Shown here: positions 7,234 through 64,000 of the stretch, in pieces
How the letters are laid out: each line of letters starts with the position of its first letter
Numbering within the stretch: position 1 is the first letter of the stretch
The notes under the pieces: model-generated
What the model was told of the DNA's origin: nothing
What the model saw: only the letters and a program-made list of their open reading frames with translations
The model's database searches: none
Program-made: the position numbers and the translations under genes
Source: Methylotenera versatilis 79
GTDB lineage: Bacteria > Pseudomonadota > Gammaproteobacteria > Burkholderiales > Methylophilaceae
Length of the DNA: 64,000 nucleotides
Direction of reading: 5' to 3'
Assembly (NCBI RefSeq): GCF_000384375.1
Contig: NZ_ARVX01000001.1
Span: 1,984,001-2,048,000, forward strand

Positions 7234-8148
7234 TTATTTTGTACCAATATAAATAGCATCATTAGCACCGCGCGTGACTTTCACCGGCAAAATGTTCGGT
7301 AACAACTGAATGATGTCATCGGTAGAATTGGTGTTGAACGTGCCAGATATTTTTAAATTGGCTAATTGTGCGTTAGTTAAAATAATCGGCGTGGTTTTAT
7401 AGCGTTGCATTTCCGCCAAGGCCTGATTCAGCGGTGTGCGTTCAAAGATAATTTTGCCATCTGTCCACGCCGTTTTTAAGGCGGAATCGACTGTTAAGGT
7501 TGATGAAATTTCACCTTGGTTAACGGTTACTTGCTCATTTTTGGTTAGATAAGTTTGTTGATACTGTGTACGCGCTTGGTTGTAACCACGCACTTGCACT
7601 TTGCCTTGCAACACTGTGACGGTGACCTGTTCATTTTTGCGCAACACATCAAAAATAGTACCAACTACTTTTATTTGAGTGGCGCCAGCCTGTACGTAAA
7701 AAGGGCGATATTGCTGGTGCGTAACATGGAACATAGCGCGGCCAGAATGTAATGTAATTTGCCTTGAGCGCAGGTGCCAATCCACTTGCAATTGTGTATT
7801 GGTGTCTAAAGTAAGTTGACTATTGTCAGCCAGCGTCAATGTTTTATGTTCGCCAATCACTGAAGCGATCTTTTCTGTTTTGTAAGTTGGGTCAATCCAT
7901 GCGAGTAGAAAAATTGCCACAAAAAATAGGGTTAATAGTGGCAACGCTTTTTTAATATTGCGCTTTACTTTCAGCTTTAGCGCAGACGTATTTTGTTGAT
8001 AAAGTGATTGATGATGGATAGAAAAATCGGGTAGCGGAAACAGCTGCTGCAATTGCATGCGGTTCGTTGCAATTGCAGCATCTTCAGTCAAAAATTCTGC
8101 TTGAGTTGAAGTTTGCTTTTGTGAGCTGTTTGGTTTCACGAGATTCAA
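7234..8148 (-). CDS. FecR-type transmembrane anti-sigma/sigma regulator (cassette 1)
   Basis: The 304-residue protein has one membrane span at about 67-87 (LLTLFFVAIFLLAWI). A FecR domain follows in the periplasm (about 98-195; LTLADNSQLTLDTNTQLQ, RAMFHVTHQ, VVGTIFDVLRK, VTVLQGKVQV) and the C-terminal region (NQALAEMQRYKTTPIIL) should contact the receptor STN domain. The cytoplasmic N-terminus lacks an obvious DUF4880 (FecR_N) motif. The TTG start overlaps the sigma stop in TTGA, which implies translational coupling. It transmits the siderophore signal from receptor to sigma factor. Confidence 0.9.
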   Translation of the reverse strand: MNLVKPNSSQKQTSTQAEFLTEDAAIATNRMQLQQLFPLPDFSIHHQSLYQQNTSALKLKVKRNIKKALPLLTLFFVAIFLLAWIDPTYKTEKIASVIGEHKTLTLADNSQLTLDTNTQLQVDWHLRSRQITLHSGRAMFHVTHQQYRPFYVQAGATQIKVVGTIFDVLRKNEQVTVTVLQGKVQVRGYNQARTQYQQTYLTKNEQVTVNQGEISSTLTVDSALKTAWTDGKIIFERTPLNQALAEMQRYKTTPIILTNAQLANLKISGTFNTNSTDDIIQLLPNILPVKVTRGANDAIYIGTK

Positions 8149-8714
8149 GTAAGCTTAGTACGATTAAGTTTAGTGCGACAGGCGAGCATGCCAGTGCGCA
8201 AATGTTTCTCTACCATTTTAATGGAAATATGCATTTTGGCCGCGATTTCGGCTTGTGGCAGTTCGTGGATTTTATGCATGATAAAAACCATTTTACAACG
8301 TTCTGGCAAGGTATTAATCGCGTCCGCAAGTAAGTGTAAATCTTGCTTTGCACTTAGAATGCGTGATGCGCAGGGCGCATTTGAGGCAACATCAGGCAAG
8401 TTTTCATACGATTGAACATAGGCATGACGCGAATCTTCTGCACGACAACGATCCACCGCAATATCGTGCGAAATGCGCTTTAATAACGCCAATGGAATGC
8501 GAGCTGGCTCTTTTGGCGTGCGTTCCAACAGATGTACGCAAACATCTTGTATCACATCTTGCGCAAAAATAGGATTACCAAAACGCCGACGCACATAATC
8601 CACTAAATGATCGTAATGCTGAATCAACGCCAAAGTCAGCAAAGACTTGTTCGGCAAATCATCTGGCATGCCAAGCGATGGATTATTTGAGTGTTGATGA
8701 GCGAGGGGTGACAT
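8145..8714 (-). CDS. FecI-type ECF sigma factor (cassette 1)
   Basis: The protein has 189 residues. Sigma region 2 includes HYDHLVDYVRRRFG and DVIQDVCVHLLER, and region 4 includes LPERCKMVFIMHKIHEL followed by an HTH (QAEIAAKMHISIKMVEKHL). Iron-starvation sigma factors of this type direct RNA polymerase to the cognate receptor promoter once FecR is activated. A strong Fur-like box sits 29-43 nt upstream of the start, which suggests repression when iron is plentiful. It is the first gene of a run continuing through fecR-like, receptor and possibly PepSY genes. Confidence 0.93.
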   Translation of the reverse strand: MSPLAHQHSNNPSLGMPDDLPNKSLLTLALIQHYDHLVDYVRRRFGNPIFAQDVIQDVCVHLLERTPKEPARIPLALLKRISHDIAVDRCRAEDSRHAYVQSYENLPDVASNAPCASRILSAKQDLHLLADAINTLPERCKMVFIMHKIHELPQAEIAAKMHISIKMVEKHLRTGMLACRTKLNRTKLT

Positions 8715-8742
8715 TTAATGCGATAAATCTGCAAATTGTTAA

Positions 8743-8757
8743 TGATAATTATTCTCA
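8743..8757 (-). promoter_or_regulatory. Fur box upstream of FecI-type sigma 1
   Basis: TGATAATTATTCTCA matches the 7-1-7 Fur consensus TGATAATGATTATCA at 13 of 15 positions; the differences are the central base and one arm base. It lies 29 nt upstream of the sigma start codon, where Fur binding would block the promoter. Confidence 0.8.
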
Positions 8758-8818
8758 TCTTAACATTTTTGGCTTTGTAAAGGCAACCCAAAGAATCCCT
8801 AGCTTAAGAACTTATAGC

Positions 8819-8852
8819 TAGTGGATTTAAATCTTTCAATTTAAATCCACTA
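8819..8852. other. 13-bp perfect inverted repeat downstream of receptor 2
   Basis: TAGTGGATTTAAA and TTTAAATCCACTA form a 13-bp perfect stem with an 8-nt loop. It begins 86 nt past the receptor 2 stop codon on the minus strand and lies upstream of the sigma 1 promoter. There is no T-tract, so it looks like a 3'-end stabilising hairpin or factor-dependent terminator. It could also insulate the two cassettes. Confidence 0.6.
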
Positions 8853-8937
8853 TCAAGTTTGCAAGTCAAACCGATCTAATGCTAATAAGGTCTGTAATGT
8901 GGACAAAACAAAGTAACTTTTTTGCCCGCACTATTAT

Positions 8938-11172
8938 CTAAAACGTGGCTGATACACTTAGCAGTAGACTGCGCCCAGCTTGATAAAGCGGCGTAACGGT
9001 GCCAAATCCTTGATAAGTAGCGCGGTCTGCGTAGGTGTCATCAAATATGTTGCGTACATCCAGTCTTAACTTAGTATTAACTGACCAAGCAGGCTGATAT
9101 TCTGCAAATAGGTTAAACACTTCATAAGATGGAAACGATAATGTGCCATTGCTGACTTTATTGTACTTTTGCGCAAGCTCAGCATCGCCGCCCACAGTGA
9201 GGTGCAGAGCAGGGAAATGATGACCTGCAGTTAAATAAAGAATTTCACCCGCTGGTGTTGCAAGATAATTTCCTGCATCGCTATCGGTACTTGTGCCATT
9301 AATCGTGACATCAATATCCGCAAATCTAGCACGTACATAGCTTTGTTCCCATTGATAACCGATACCTAATTCGTAACCGCGTGAACGTACATCACTCGCT
9401 AAATTAGCGCTATTCACCGCAAATCTGGCGACACGGGCATTCTCTATACGCGTTTCAAACACTTTGGCTTCTGCCGAAAATCCATGATAACGGGTTTCTA
9501 AACCAAAGAAATAGTTATCTGCCTTAGTAGGTTTGGGGCCGTTTCCGTAGTTCCAATCTGTGTTCATGATAAAGTTCTCTGCCATCTGACTACCGCTGAA
9601 TACATGCGAAAAGCCCGCTTTGACAGTCAGTAGTTCCGGCACAATCGCTAATTCGCCAGAAGCATTAGAGCTTAAGCCAGAATGCGACCAGCTATCTCCT
9701 TGCGTGCCTGTTAGGCGATGATGATCACCGCGCACACCAGCAGAAACTTGCAAAGGCTGCCAAGGGTTTATTCTGGCTTGCACGTAAGCACCTTTATTGC
9801 TGGCTTTTTCTTCTACCTGATAAGTAGGGTCTTTGTAATCGGCTTTGTCACGATAAAAATCCACGCCTGCAGTAATGCTGCCGATATCTAGTGGAAATTT
9901 GTTCTCAAACTTGCCGTTAAAGCTACCCGTTTCGCCACTACCTGGGAAAACCACTGTGCCGCCACGTGTGAAGATGGGCACGGTAATTTCAGTTTTGCTG
10001 TAGGCTAATACCACATTCGGATTCCACCACTGTTCAGGGTTGTCTTGAAAGTAACGTAGTACGGTGTTGTCACGGATCATTTCGTAATCACGCACACGCG
10101 GCTCCCACGCTGGTCGACCAGTAATAAAACCAATGTTGCCACGGAATGGGCGGGCAGCATCGTCGCGCACACGCTCATGGCTCAATTGCAAGCGGTGTCC
10201 GCCTTCAGCCTCTGCACCCAATTTAACATAGCCACTGACTAAGTCTGTTCCCGTACCGTCTACTTTATCGCCATTGCCAGCCTCAAAACTATTGCCATTT
10301 GCAACCGTTAAGTAGGCTAATCCATCCAACTGTTCAGAAGCGCCATAGCCTGCGAGTGTTTGACTAAAAATATTACCATTGGTGTTAAAGCTGGAGCGAA
10401 TATAAGCGCCTAGGTCAGGAGACGTTAAGAAATCACGCGCATTTCTAGTTTCGTAGGCAATAGAGCCTGCGATTGCGCCAGGCCCAGCATCTGATGGCGC
10501 AACACCCGCATTAACACTCACAGCTTTAAGGAATATTGGGTCAATAAGCGTTGTACCGTTATGATGGAATACTTTATTATTTTGGCGGCTGCCATCGATA
10601 GTTACTGCTAAATTGGTTTCTTCAATCCCGTTCACATAGACTTTTTGCGACATAGGCGTTGACCCGCCGACTTTGACTGAAGGCTGGCCATTAAATACAC
10701 CACGAACGTCGCTAGGATTGTTGCGTGCCAATGCTTCTGTATCGATTAACAATGTGCCAGGTTCTGTCACAGGTAACAGTTTTGCTGCAGTTGCTGATAC
10801 GGCAACTTCTGGCAGTGTTTCTTCGCTGGTCTGCGCATTGGTTATTGGTTTTTTAATTACCGTAAAGCCTTGTGCAGCATCGCCTTGTAATATTAAGCCG
10901 CTATTTTTTAACAAAGCGTCTAACGCTTCACGCGTATTCAAATTACCTTTTACTGCAGGCGCAGTGATTTTTTCAGTTAAATCGGTCGAAAACACAATGC
11001 GTTCGCCAGATTGTTTGGCTAAAGTGTTTAAAGCTTTATCTAAGGGTTGAGCAGGAATATCTATTTCTGCTGCCATTAGTTGCAAACTGCTACTGAGCAA
11101 AATAGCCAAAGTAGTGTGTTTAAAATAAGCGGGCAGGGTGTTTTGTTTCGTTTTGTTCAGTTGCGGGTGCAT
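8938..11172 (-). CDS. TonB-dependent receptor with STN domain (cassette 2), possibly heme-type
   Basis: The 744-residue receptor starts at ATG 11172, with GGAG upstream; a TTG one codon earlier is less likely. A signal sequence (about 1-35, ending LQLMA) precedes an STN domain (AQPLDKALNTLAKQSGERIVF). The plug contains VYVNGIEETNLAVTIDGSRQ, then HHNGTTLIDPIFLKAVSV and AGPGAIAGSIAYETR. The barrel ends LLLSVSATF. The DGSRQN...H...G plug pattern is closer to heme/hemoglobin-type receptors than to hydroxamate receptors, but I do not see clear FRAP/NPNL heme motifs, so the ligand is open. It is the output gene of the second sigma/FecR cassette. Confidence 0.88.
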   Translation of the reverse strand: MHPQLNKTKQNTLPAYFKHTTLAILLSSSLQLMAAEIDIPAQPLDKALNTLAKQSGERIVFSTDLTEKITAPAVKGNLNTREALDALLKNSGLILQGDAAQGFTVIKKPITNAQTSEETLPEVAVSATAAKLLPVTEPGTLLIDTEALARNNPSDVRGVFNGQPSVKVGGSTPMSQKVYVNGIEETNLAVTIDGSRQNNKVFHHNGTTLIDPIFLKAVSVNAGVAPSDAGPGAIAGSIAYETRNARDFLTSPDLGAYIRSSFNTNGNIFSQTLAGYGASEQLDGLAYLTVANGNSFEAGNGDKVDGTGTDLVSGYVKLGAEAEGGHRLQLSHERVRDDAARPFRGNIGFITGRPAWEPRVRDYEMIRDNTVLRYFQDNPEQWWNPNVVLAYSKTEITVPIFTRGGTVVFPGSGETGSFNGKFENKFPLDIGSITAGVDFYRDKADYKDPTYQVEEKASNKGAYVQARINPWQPLQVSAGVRGDHHRLTGTQGDSWSHSGLSSNASGELAIVPELLTVKAGFSHVFSGSQMAENFIMNTDWNYGNGPKPTKADNYFFGLETRYHGFSAEAKVFETRIENARVARFAVNSANLASDVRSRGYELGIGYQWEQSYVRARFADIDVTINGTSTDSDAGNYLATPAGEILYLTAGHHFPALHLTVGGDAELAQKYNKVSNGTLSFPSYEVFNLFAEYQPAWSVNTKLRLDVRNIFDDTYADRATYQGFGTVTPLYQAGRSLLLSVSATF

Positions 11173-11307
11173 CAAAATAACTCCAATATTGATAGTTGAT
11201 TTAACTTAAACCTTCAACCCTATGGCGTTTGAGCACTTGCAAATGTTGATGTCTGTTTTGAAAACAGTTGAATTAAATGCAATATTTTTTAATATTGAGA
11301 CTTTATT

Positions 11308-61773: not shown

Positions 61774-61892
61774 CGGATTATTTTCTAAATTTTAGACAAT
61801 ATTATTGATAAATATTACAGTAAAAATCTGGTTAATACTGCTTCAAGCAGGGCTGCTGAATAATTAACTAATAAAGTTCTTTACATCTTAAA

Positions 61893-61907
61893 TAAGAACC
61901 ATTATCA
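61893..61907 (+). promoter_or_regulatory. Fur box upstream of the S4-paralogue/hemP/tonB locus
   Basis: TAAGAACCATTATCA is, on the other strand, TGATAATGGTTCTTA, which matches the 7-1-7 Fur consensus at 12 of 15 positions. It lies 29 nt upstream of the first gene of the locus, as in classical Fur-repressed promoters. Confidence 0.72.
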
Positions 61908-61936
61908 TTTACATATCAATACAAATGGTGAATTGA

Positions 61937-62236
61937 ATGCAACTTCAAATGGTAAATGCTAAAAAAACTAGCGTTCTATATGACCCGGAATTACCAACGG
62001 CCAAAGATATCATGGCGGCAATTTGTTGTGTGGCAACACACTACGCAATGAAGCCGTCATTAGGCTTGGCGATTTTAGCCGCTGATTTGGCGTTAAAGTT
62101 CACTGCGCCAGAATATGCAGAATCCATATTGATTAAAGATATCTCTAAGCGATTATTGAATCAATGGGAAAACATCGTAGCGGAATACGATGATGCAGAC
62201 GCTCAAGTATTACCAGCACACGCAACATTGCAATAA
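61937..62236 (+). CDS. Unrecognised 99-residue protein, first gene of the Fur-linked locus
   Basis: The protein has a polar N-terminus, a moderately hydrophobic middle with adjacent cysteines (MAAICCVATHYAMKPSLGLA, Cys30-Cys31), and an acidic C-terminus (IVAEYDDADAQVLPAHATLQ). An in-frame ATG at 61949 could also serve as start. There is no signal peptide. It lies directly after a Fur-like box and 30 bp before the S4 paralogue, so it is probably iron-regulated. No family recognised. Confidence 0.7.
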   Translation: MQLQMVNAKKTSVLYDPELPTAKDIMAAICCVATHYAMKPSLGLAILAADLALKFTAPEYAESILIKDISKRLLNQWENIVAEYDDADAQVLPAHATLQ

Positions 62237-62266: not shown

Positions 62267-62884
62267 ATGTCAAGATTAACGGGCCCAAGATTAAAGATTA
62301 TGCGCGCATTGGGCGTGGATTTACCAGGCTTATCACGCAAGACAATCGAGGCGCGTCCAACGCCGCCAGGCCAACACGGTAATAAAGCATCACGCAAACG
62401 TCGTTCAGATTTCGGCGTAAAACTGCAAGAAAAACAAAAGATTCGTTTTAACTACGGATTAACAGAAACACAAATGCGCAGAATGATTTTAGATGCGCGT
62501 AAAGGCAAAGAGCCTACAGGCGAGCGTTTATTGCAGTTATTGGAGCGTCGTATGGATAATGTGGTTTTCCGTGCAGGTTTCGCACCTACTTTGATTGCGG
62601 CGCGTCAATTAGTGACGCACGGTCATTTAATGCTGAATGGTCGCAATGTGAATATTCCTTCTATCCGTCTAAAAGTAGGTGATGAAGTGACGATTCGTGT
62701 GAAAAGTAAAAACATTCCGATGGTTGTTGAGACGATTAAACAACCGTCTTTAGCGCGTCCAGAATGGTTAACTTGGGATGAAGCGACTACTGTTGTGAAA
62801 GTAGCGCACTTACCAGCGATTGAAGATGTACCATTTCCTGTTGATGTGCAGCAAGTGGTGGAATATTACGCTAACCGCGTGTAA
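62267..62884 (+). CDS. rpsD: Paralogue of 30S ribosomal protein S4 (cysteine-free)
   Basis: The 205-residue protein is a full-length S4: N-terminal MSRLTGPRLKIMRALGVDLP, PGQHG at 34-38, EKQKIRFNYGLTE at 55-67, and the S4 RNA-binding domain at about 94-155 (RMDNVVFRAGFAP, AARQLVTHGHLMLNGRNVNI). The C-terminus is VVEYYANRV. AAGGAA precedes the ATG. It is not in a ribosomal-protein operon; it sits between a Fur-linked unknown gene and hemP. It contains no cysteine. Its motifs (DLPGLSRK, RFNYGLTE, VEYY) resemble cyanobacterial/plastid S4 more than betaproteobacterial S4, so it is probably a second, specialised copy. Confidence 0.9.
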   Translation: MSRLTGPRLKIMRALGVDLPGLSRKTIEARPTPPGQHGNKASRKRRSDFGVKLQEKQKIRFNYGLTETQMRRMILDARKGKEPTGERLLQLLERRMDNVVFRAGFAPTLIAARQLVTHGHLMLNGRNVNIPSIRLKVGDEVTIRVKSKNIPMVVETIKQPSLARPEWLTWDEATTVVKVAHLPAIEDVPFPVDVQQVVEYYANRV

Positions 62885-62913: not shown

Positions 62914-62943
62914 ATTTAAGACGTCCCTAACAACGTCTTAAAT
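62914..62943 (+). other. 10-bp perfect hairpin between S4 paralogue and hemP
   Basis: ATTTAAGACG and CGTCTTAAAT form a 10-bp stem with a 10-nt loop, beginning 29 nt past the S4 stop. No T-tract follows, so it is more likely an mRNA-processing, stability or protein-binding structure than an intrinsic terminator. Confidence 0.6.
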
Positions 62944-62966: not shown

Positions 62967-63053
62967 CTCCTTGATTTTATGGCCGCCTTGCACTTGGTTT
63001 GATTATATCAAATTAATGCATGTTAGTCGGTCACTTTTTTGAGCTTGGTTTTC

Positions 63054-63272
63054 ATGAAAGTAATTACACACTTAACAGCTAAAGAACACATGAGTTTTGA
63101 TGTGGCGATTGTAGCGGATGATTCTTCTAATAAAGAGATGAAAATGTCGCGTATTAAACGCTTAAACACAGAACAATTGTTCACCAATGTTAAAGAGGTA
63201 ATGATTGAACATTTGAATGAAACCTATATTTTGCGCATCACCAAACAAAATAAATTGATTTTAACCAAGTAG
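63054..63272 (+). CDS. hemP: Hemin uptake protein HemP family
   Basis: The C-terminal half carries the HemP signature RIKRLNTEQLFTNVKEVMIE followed by ETYILRITKQNKLILTK. HemP/HmuP proteins are small, Fur-linked and needed for expression or activity of heme uptake systems. ATG 63054 gives 72 residues. In-frame ATGs at 63090 and 63138 and a TTG at 63039 are alternatives, since the N-terminus is not conserved. tonB follows 0.3 kb downstream, and heme receptor genes may lie beyond the window. Confidence 0.85.
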   Translation: MKVITHLTAKEHMSFDVAIVADDSSNKEMKMSRIKRLNTEQLFTNVKEVMIEHLNETYILRITKQNKLILTK

Positions 63273-63319
63273 ATTTAGTTAACTATTCAGCGGCTCAAAT
63301 ATTAATACAGGAAAAATCC

Positions 63320-63561
63320 ATGTCACCTAAAATCAACACTCCCGTATTTTGCTCGCTAAAAATGAGAGCGGCACGATTGCTTTTTGTGAGGGCTGCGATG
63401 TGGTGGAGTTGGAAATAGGTGCAGTGAGTATGCGCATTGATGCGGAATTGTTACAAGCATTAAATGGTTTGTTCAAGGATGCGGATATTCGTCTAAATTA
63501 TTACCGTCTAGAAAAAGCCAGTTTTGAGCAAAGCCAATCGGTGGATTTAAGTTTTCATTAA
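63320..63561 (+). pseudogene. Small CxxC protein gene with an apparent 1-bp frameshift
   Basis: An ATG at 63320 with AGGA upstream begins MSPKINTPVF, but this frame stops after 33 codons. The adjacent frame, open from 63331, carries a protein-like sequence LLAKNESGTIAFCEGCDVV and LEIGAVSMRIDAELLQAL. The switch coincides with the TTTT run at 63347-63350. One extra T would join MSPKINTPVF to LLAKNESG into a protein of about 80 residues. Otherwise translation would need a TTG at 63349 that has no Shine-Dalgarno. It is either a real mutation, slippage, or an assembly error. The CEGC motif could bind metal. Family not recognised. Confidence 0.6.
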
Positions 63562-63600: not shown

Positions 63601-64000
63601 ATGAGCAACCAAACGTCTACCGTTGTTAATTTATTTGCCGCACGTCAGGCAAAATTTAATCAGCAATCAAATCATGCAGCTGAGTCTTCAAGATTAACCA
63701 GACTATATGCTTTGCCGCTACAAGCAACGCAACCGACTAGCCCAACACCGCCACAAAAATCCTACTCATGGTTAGCGACATTATTTGTCGTATTGGCGCA
63801 TGCGGCGGTTATTTATGTATTGATTACACAAACACCGATTGAAAAAGCAAAAATAGAACCGGCAGCGCCAATGATGGTGAGCTTGATTGCGCCGCCAGCA
63901 CCTGAGCCAGAATTAGTGCCAGTGATCGAACCACCAAAACCAGAAGTAAAGCCCGTTGTTAAGCCAAAAAAAGTAGTTGAAAAAATCAAGCCAATTGAAA
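63601..64000 (+). CDS. tonB: TonB energy-transducing protein, N-terminal part (cut by window edge)
   Basis: The 133 visible residues show a cytoplasmic N-terminus longer than in E. coli TonB. The membrane anchor is at about 55-76 (YSWLATLFVVLAHAAVIYV), including the conserved His of the TonB helix (His67). A Pro/Glu/Lys-rich periplasmic spacer follows (PPAPEPELVPVIEPPKPEVK). TonB uses the proton-motive force through ExbBD to open receptors such as the two in this window. The C-terminal receptor-binding domain and any exbB/exbD genes lie outside. Confidence 0.9.
   Translation, partial: MSNQTSTVVNLFAARQAKFNQQSNHAAESSRLTRLYALPLQATQPTSPTPPQKSYSWLATLFVVLAHAAVIYVLITQTPIEKAKIEPAAPMMVSLIAPPAPEPELVPVIEPPKPEVKPVVKPKKVVEKIKPIE

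Follow-up and report, generated by a model that had tools for sequence, protein, structure and literature searches.

Flavodoxin taking the place of ferredoxin when iron is short is a familiar case of an iron-sparing isozyme, and zinc-free paralogues controlled by Zur are known for bL31B and for other ribosomal proteins. For ribosomal protein S4, Chen et al. (2009, PMC3087516) separated a four-cysteine C+ type from a cysteine-free C- type, reported C+ and C-(IV) copies in N. europaea and two C-(IV) copies with loss of C+ in Methylobacillus flagellatus, and suggested a transfer of C-(IV) S4 from Cyanobacteria. The metal of the four-cysteine site was interpreted as zinc in that paper, and Zur sites were sought near the S4 paralogues and none was found; the words "iron" and "hemin" are absent from its available text (word search). 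In Thermus, the site of uS4 once called a zinc finger holds an Fe4S4 cluster (Rozov et al. 2019, PMC6555806), as PMC10450194 agrees, and the latter ties the metal-binding residues and the four-cysteine S4 to high growth temperature. Beyond human mitochondria, ribosomal Fe-S clusters have been demonstrated in Thermus and one algal mitochondrion only (PMC11791143), and no mesophilic bacterium with an S4 cluster is named in the available text of these three papers (PMC6555806, PMC10450194 and PMC11791143). Among the matches listed from open-licence PMC papers, none described an S4 paralogue regulated by iron or Fur, and the word "iron" does not occur in the available text of two recent reviews (PMC10931766 and PMC12186496; word searches). 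In Myxococcus xanthus, which has two copies, the S4 genes change oppositely in development and are both raised in predation (PMC9548883); in other lineages the signal may thus be something other than iron.

We describe here an S4 gene, rpsD2, of Methylotenera versatilis 79, found in a window of 64 kb, that is, the whole stretch of DNA analysed. As a cluster-free protein in place of an Fe-S protein, its product would recall the exchange of flavodoxin for ferredoxin, although swaps of that kind concern electron carriers and enzymes and not a part of the ribosome. The pairing of a metal-responsive repressor with a metal-free paralogue would be shared with Zur-controlled cases such as bL31B (PMC10931766); those use Zur and zinc, whereas here Fur and iron would be used, and S4, unlike the proteins of that comparison, is a primary assembly protein of the 30S subunit. 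In Thermus thermophilus uS4 (PMC6555806) the four cysteines match in position those of the housekeeping S4 of M. versatilis 79, but this is the protein of a thermophile, with no paralogue or regulation described in the available text. The C-(IV) paralogues of PMC3087516 are likewise cysteine-free, outside an alpha operon that holds the C+ copy, and cyanobacterial-like in their placing; a cysteine-free, cyanobacterial-like S4 paralogue as such is already known. What is new is the putative control of this S4 through a Fur box, since only Zur sites were searched for in that study and its available text shows neither a Fur box or TonB locus nor an altered promoter.

A second, cysteine-free S4 gene in Methylotenera versatilis 79

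The rpsD2 gene (62267..62884, forward strand) encodes 205 amino acids, none of them cysteine. In a Pfam profile search its product matched the S4 N-terminal domain and the S4 RNA-binding domain (PF00163 and PF01479) over the curated cut-offs that define uS4, and it was above the cut-off for both bacterial S4 equivalogs of NCBIfam, NF003717 and TIGR01017, in agreement with the first-pass annotation, which had called a complete S4 homologue without cysteine. It belongs to the C-(IV) type, as it has no cysteine pairs, has an N-terminal segment shorter than that of C+ proteins, keeps the PGXHG motif and lies outside the alpha operon; aligned to Thermus uS4, it has gaps at the second cysteine pair of the latter, and PPGQHG is present. 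Methylotenera versatilis 7 was the closest named relative at the locus among the matches listed (S4 96%). dN/dS was 0.013-0.15 in 15 of 17 pairs of relatives (three pairs being between C- only genomes), and the two pairs with saturated dS had a pN/pS of about 0.1; rpsD2 is thus under strong purifying constraint.

The 2.6-Mb genome, assembled as one contig in which the window occupies 1984001-2048000, has another S4 gene at about 477 kb in the order rpsM-rpsK-rpsD-rpoA of the alpha operon, and rpsD2 is thus the second copy. This housekeeping S4 has four cysteines at positions 9, 12, 26 and 31, with the spacing of those in Thermus uS4, and by analogy a [4Fe-4S] cluster is most likely bound at its N-terminal site. 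Since in Thermus the corresponding cysteines hold such a cluster, an iron link of rpsD2 has a direct rationale, although a cluster in the partner S4 of M. versatilis 79 itself is put forward less firmly than control by Fur.

In a tree of 87 S4 proteins, made by a quick method, the proteobacterial C- clade was separate from the C+ and C-(I) S4s of betaproteobacteria, and the rpsD2 product, whose nearest relatives were other proteobacterial C-(IV) S4s, was not placed with the vertical betaproteobacterial ones. The first-pass annotation had likened the protein to the cyanobacterial and plastid type; of this the non-vertical C-(IV) type stands, and the cyanobacteria are one possible donor, the clade joining them at a weak, open fork (support 71). 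The C- copy of N. europaea was nested inside Methylophilaceae (supports 95 and 96, starred). C- type S4 was present in 56 of 187 Methylophilaceae genomes, and among 399 genomes sampled evenly across the order it was found in ten further ones outside the family (>240 bits). When 20 of the 80 listed loci were searched by genome, both S4 types were found in 14, the partner having four cysteines in every one, and the C- type only in six, some of these being draft MAGs that might lack a C+ copy only through incompleteness. A different second S4 was seen in one genome (L153, G077), as weak second hits in small genomes of the g16 genus, and in L166 and L168; this S4, with about 40% identity, an NIWG/NLWG motif and an alphaproteobacterial look by eye, may be contamination or a separate transfer.

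The Fur box and the TonB locus around rpsD2

As had been annotated, rpsD2 is not in a ribosomal operon; its neighbors are a 99-aa ORF, hemP and tonB. The upstream ORF, g1 (61937..62236, forward strand), is conserved before S4 and encodes a 99-aa predicted three-helix bundle (model mean pLDDT 78), for which Pfam and NCBIfam gave no match and a fold search with the structural model gave a best E of 0.81. On the same strand downstream are hemP (63039..63272; PF10636, E 3.7e-15), with its conserved part at 63162-63269 and an uncertain start codon, g3 (63349..63561), for a small CxxC protein of a family that recurs at Fur boxes, its start also being uncertain, and the first part of tonB (63601..64000; PF03544), which runs past the window edge and is followed there by exbB, exbD and genes for a PepSY protein and a TonB siderophore receptor. 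At 63319-63349, near the N-terminus of g3, comparison with a relative (G011) showed the ATG frame to be broken, so that a later TTG start would be needed. An inverted repeat, TAAGACGT-8-ACGTCTTA, seen by eye at 62917-62940 between S4 and hemP and lacking a T run, is possibly an attenuator or a processing site. An iron/heme link had been proposed for this S4, and its iron side is supported by the conserved, Fur-box-led TonB locus; a special heme link is not, hemP being the only gene that speaks for it, and the remaining genes resemble a general system for TonB/siderophore uptake. Fe-S sites are sensitive to oxidants, and the same sequence facts would fit a backup against cluster damage, in which oxidants derepress Fur, the cysteine-free S4 replaces an oxidation-sensitive one and stress is the selective force; we regard this as improbable, because the identified neighbors are iron-uptake genes, and no gene for oxidative stress was noticed among them.

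Upstream of g1, as the first-pass annotation had noticed, is a Fur box, AATAAGAACCATTATCATT (61891..61909), with 15 of the 18 scored positions of what we take to be the 9-1-9 Fur consensus. It overlaps the best promoter match, a sigma-70-type TTTACA-17-TATCAT (61880..61908, forward strand; 10/12), promoter matches there being no commoner than in shuffles. A score of 15 or more of 18 within 900 bp had a chance of 0.015 in the window. The whole genome has six sites of 15/18 or more, compared to four for the reversed pattern, so that by pattern matching the genome-wide count appears little above chance, whereas the location of the rpsD2 box does not. Two of the six are inside ORFs and four in promoter positions (gene names by eye), namely at this locus, at a g3 gene, at a FecI-like gene that has a TonB receptor close by, and in the gap that separates a TonB-receptor-like gene from a divergent ORF. 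A g3 gene lies at the best Fur box of this genome (L271). Within the window, genes for a FecI-like sigma factor, a FecR-like protein and a TonB receptor were recognized by eye at 7234-11175, with a 16/18 Fur box at 8741. The genes g1-S4-hemP-g3-tonB follow the box at 61891 without a second box, and a fur gene whose product passes the NCBIfam cut-off is present in the genome; from a Fur box at the promoter and a fur gene, the sequence signs of a Fur regulon, we infer that Fur would bind here and that the rpsD2 unit would respond to iron.

All 56 C- genomes were scored for Fur boxes up to 900 bp upstream of S4. Boxes of 15-18/18 were found in 44 of 45 two-copy Methylophilaceae genomes, the three genomes with an unassembled alpha operon scored 16-17/18, and the eight C- only genomes, at 9-12/18, all lacked an upstream box; with 20 shuffles each, p was 0.05 or less in 44/45, 3/3 and 0/8, respectively. 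The two-copy exception, G025, has a diverged S4 copy (65%) and no box (10/18). In fourteen two-copy genomes one box precedes the S4 unit and a further one, scoring at least 15, lies between S4 and hemP; the S4 unit therefore has its own box. The order g1-S4-hemP-g3-tonB-exbB-exbD recurs across Methylophilaceae, its variants being loci without g3, loci with an additional hemP or an extra g3 ahead of g1, and loci with g3 but neither hemP nor tonB in the stretch examined; the order of unknown gene, S4, hemP and tonB behind a Fur box is thus conserved in the family. g1 was found in 48 of 187 family genomes, namely G118 and, of the 48 C- genomes outside the C- only group, all but G025 (47). The strict idea of g1 as a partner of S4 alone was given up, since a second g1 was found in Methylophilus genomes; at two Methylophilus-type loci (L221 and L222) it belongs to a Fur box-g3-g1-g3 unit that lacks S4. 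g1 and g3 are two small-protein families that recur behind Fur boxes.

Zur control of the C- S4 was also considered and rejected: what is presumably the core consensus of E. coli Zur, with 16 positions, scored 9-11/16, with p of 0.05 or less in 0/56 genomes (20 shuffles each). The swap might still spare zinc, if the housekeeping S4 bound zinc and iron starvation, coming along with a shortage of zinc, led to the zinc-free copy being made. For other ribosomal proteins, C+/C- pairs serve as zinc swaps (PMC10931766), and the four-cysteine site of S4 was originally read as a zinc site (PMC3087516), but the box here is of the Fur type, the Zur core is no better than in shuffles, Chen et al. (PMC3087516) were likewise left without a Zur site, and the S4 site holds Fe4S4 in Thermus (PMC6555806); we consider a zinc-sparing swap unlikely. 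On another ribosomal protein, the only L31 found in genome G000 (G000:C1:1341549-1341785, L210) has no cysteine in the 80 residues read.

Outside Methylophilaceae, a 14/18 box before S4 was found only in N. europaea, where g1-S4 is apart from hemP-tonB and a TonB-receptor-like gene is upstream (by eye), and in G041; there are weaker matches in L068, L069 and L162, and Thauera (L076) has a 14/18 match 346 bp before S4. Most other betaproteobacterial loci lack a Fur box before S4, and a box directly before S4 in Rhodocyclales-type loci was rejected as a rule, being mostly missing. Among 12 other betaproteobacterial loci (L069-L082 minus L072 and L077; L071 and L078 with short flanks), hemP was <1 kb from S4 in three (L070, L073 and L075), L070 having BFD-like and ferritin-like genes too and L075 a ferritin-like gene, and tonB-exbB-exbD was about 1-2 kb off on the opposite strand in one (L080). 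Two genomes, G118 and G020, have Fur box-hemP-tonB-exbB-exbD without S4 (hemP, tonB and exbD by eye). Such loci would fit an acquired S4 gene that came to lie behind a Fur promoter and is under iron control without function, but the purifying selection on rpsD2, the separate S4 box in the 14 genomes and N. europaea, and the absence of the upstream box exactly where the C- S4 is the sole S4, G025 apart, make mere hitchhiking very improbable.

Genomes in which the cysteine-free S4 is the only S4

In eight genomes rpsK is directly followed by rpoA, and the C- S4 is the only S4 found; judged by gene content, the C- orthologue can therefore serve in ribosomes as a functional S4. Three further genomes (G120, G165 and G174) were rejected as sole-C- genomes and counted apart, as rpsK was also not found and the alpha operon is unassembled. 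The seven C- only rows of the S4 tree (six of the eight genomes and M. glycogenes, G106 being left out) formed one clade with support 92, so the loss of the C+ S4 and of the box was one event, not eight. g1 is in none of the eight, and hemP was not found beside S4 in the stretches searched (E up to 1; 1.5 kb each side for G104). Downstream of S4, a 15/18 Fur box was found in seven of them, 114-188 bp past the stop codon; in G015 no match there exceeded 13/18, and an extra 15/18 match in G001, 948 bp after S4, was left uncounted because it should lie in tonB.

Upstream of S4, TATAAT was found 179-231 nt away in all eight C- only genomes, and within 330 bp in 0/45 two-copy genomes, where g1 takes up much of the stretch. 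The C- only loci (L012, L014, L015, L047, L052, L053, L055 and L139) also share a leader RNA before S4, about 120 nt long, with four helices and 25 pairs, of which 98.5% of cells were paired and nine cells changed on both sides, compared to 20-47% paired in slid controls; single sequences folded mildly better than shuffles (z -0.48 to -3.11, five sequences). A covariance model of the leader hit 8 of 187 family genomes, exactly the C- only eight, directly before S4 (9 places); it was built from those same sequences and run with strict filters, and only its absence elsewhere is a test. The leader is possibly an autogenous S4 site. Comparison of four of these loci with Rfam gave six matches, all below the gathering score and not one of them on the leader.

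In E. coli, S4 acts as a repressor of the alpha operon (PMC10931766), and the rpsD2 product could be an mRNA regulator of that operon or of its own locus and not a ribosome part. The chance of this appears slim, because the orthologue is the only S4, hence a working ribosomal protein, in eight genomes, and Rfam found no known RNA family at gathering score in the 64-kb window; a regulatory role would also be compatible with iron sparing.

Proposed role of rpsD2 in iron shortage

We somewhat favor the reading that rpsD2 encodes a Fur-repressed, iron-sparing alternative S4, which would replace the cluster-bearing S4 when iron is short. With iron plentiful, Fur would keep rpsD2 silent; with iron scarce, Fur would leave the box at 61891-61909, and g1-S4-hemP-g3-tonB-exbB-exbD would be transcribed. 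Cysteine-free S4 would then be built into new 30S subunits instead of the housekeeping protein, and translation would continue without iron and Fe-S assembly being spent on each ribosome. The two S4 types, the Fur box, the conserved order and the missing upstream box where the C- S4 is the sole S4 are read from the genomes themselves, and a C- S4 led by a Fur box, alongside a four-cysteine S4, is the arrangement to be expected of an iron-sparing response; that S4 is exchanged in the ribosomes of two-copy species may hold too, less firmly. Counted against iron sparing are the single event behind the loss of the box, the boxless G025, the lack of a box at most other betaproteobacterial loci, the cluster known from a thermophile only, and the loci without S4.

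There is about an even chance that the wider picture is also right, namely a betaproteobacterial iron-sparing ribosome under Fur, with the spare S4 rewired to a constitutive promoter and given a structured leader that may sense S4, where the cluster S4 was lost. The Thermus uS4 [4Fe-4S] cluster has so far been regarded as a thermophile's stabilizer; if this reading is true, cells would treat the S4 cluster site as an iron cost even in a mesophile, and iron status would set the make-up of the small subunit. Metal-controlled ribosome swaps would then extend from zinc to iron, and the question of Fe-S clusters in ordinary bacterial ribosomes would become directly testable in an easily grown methylotroph.
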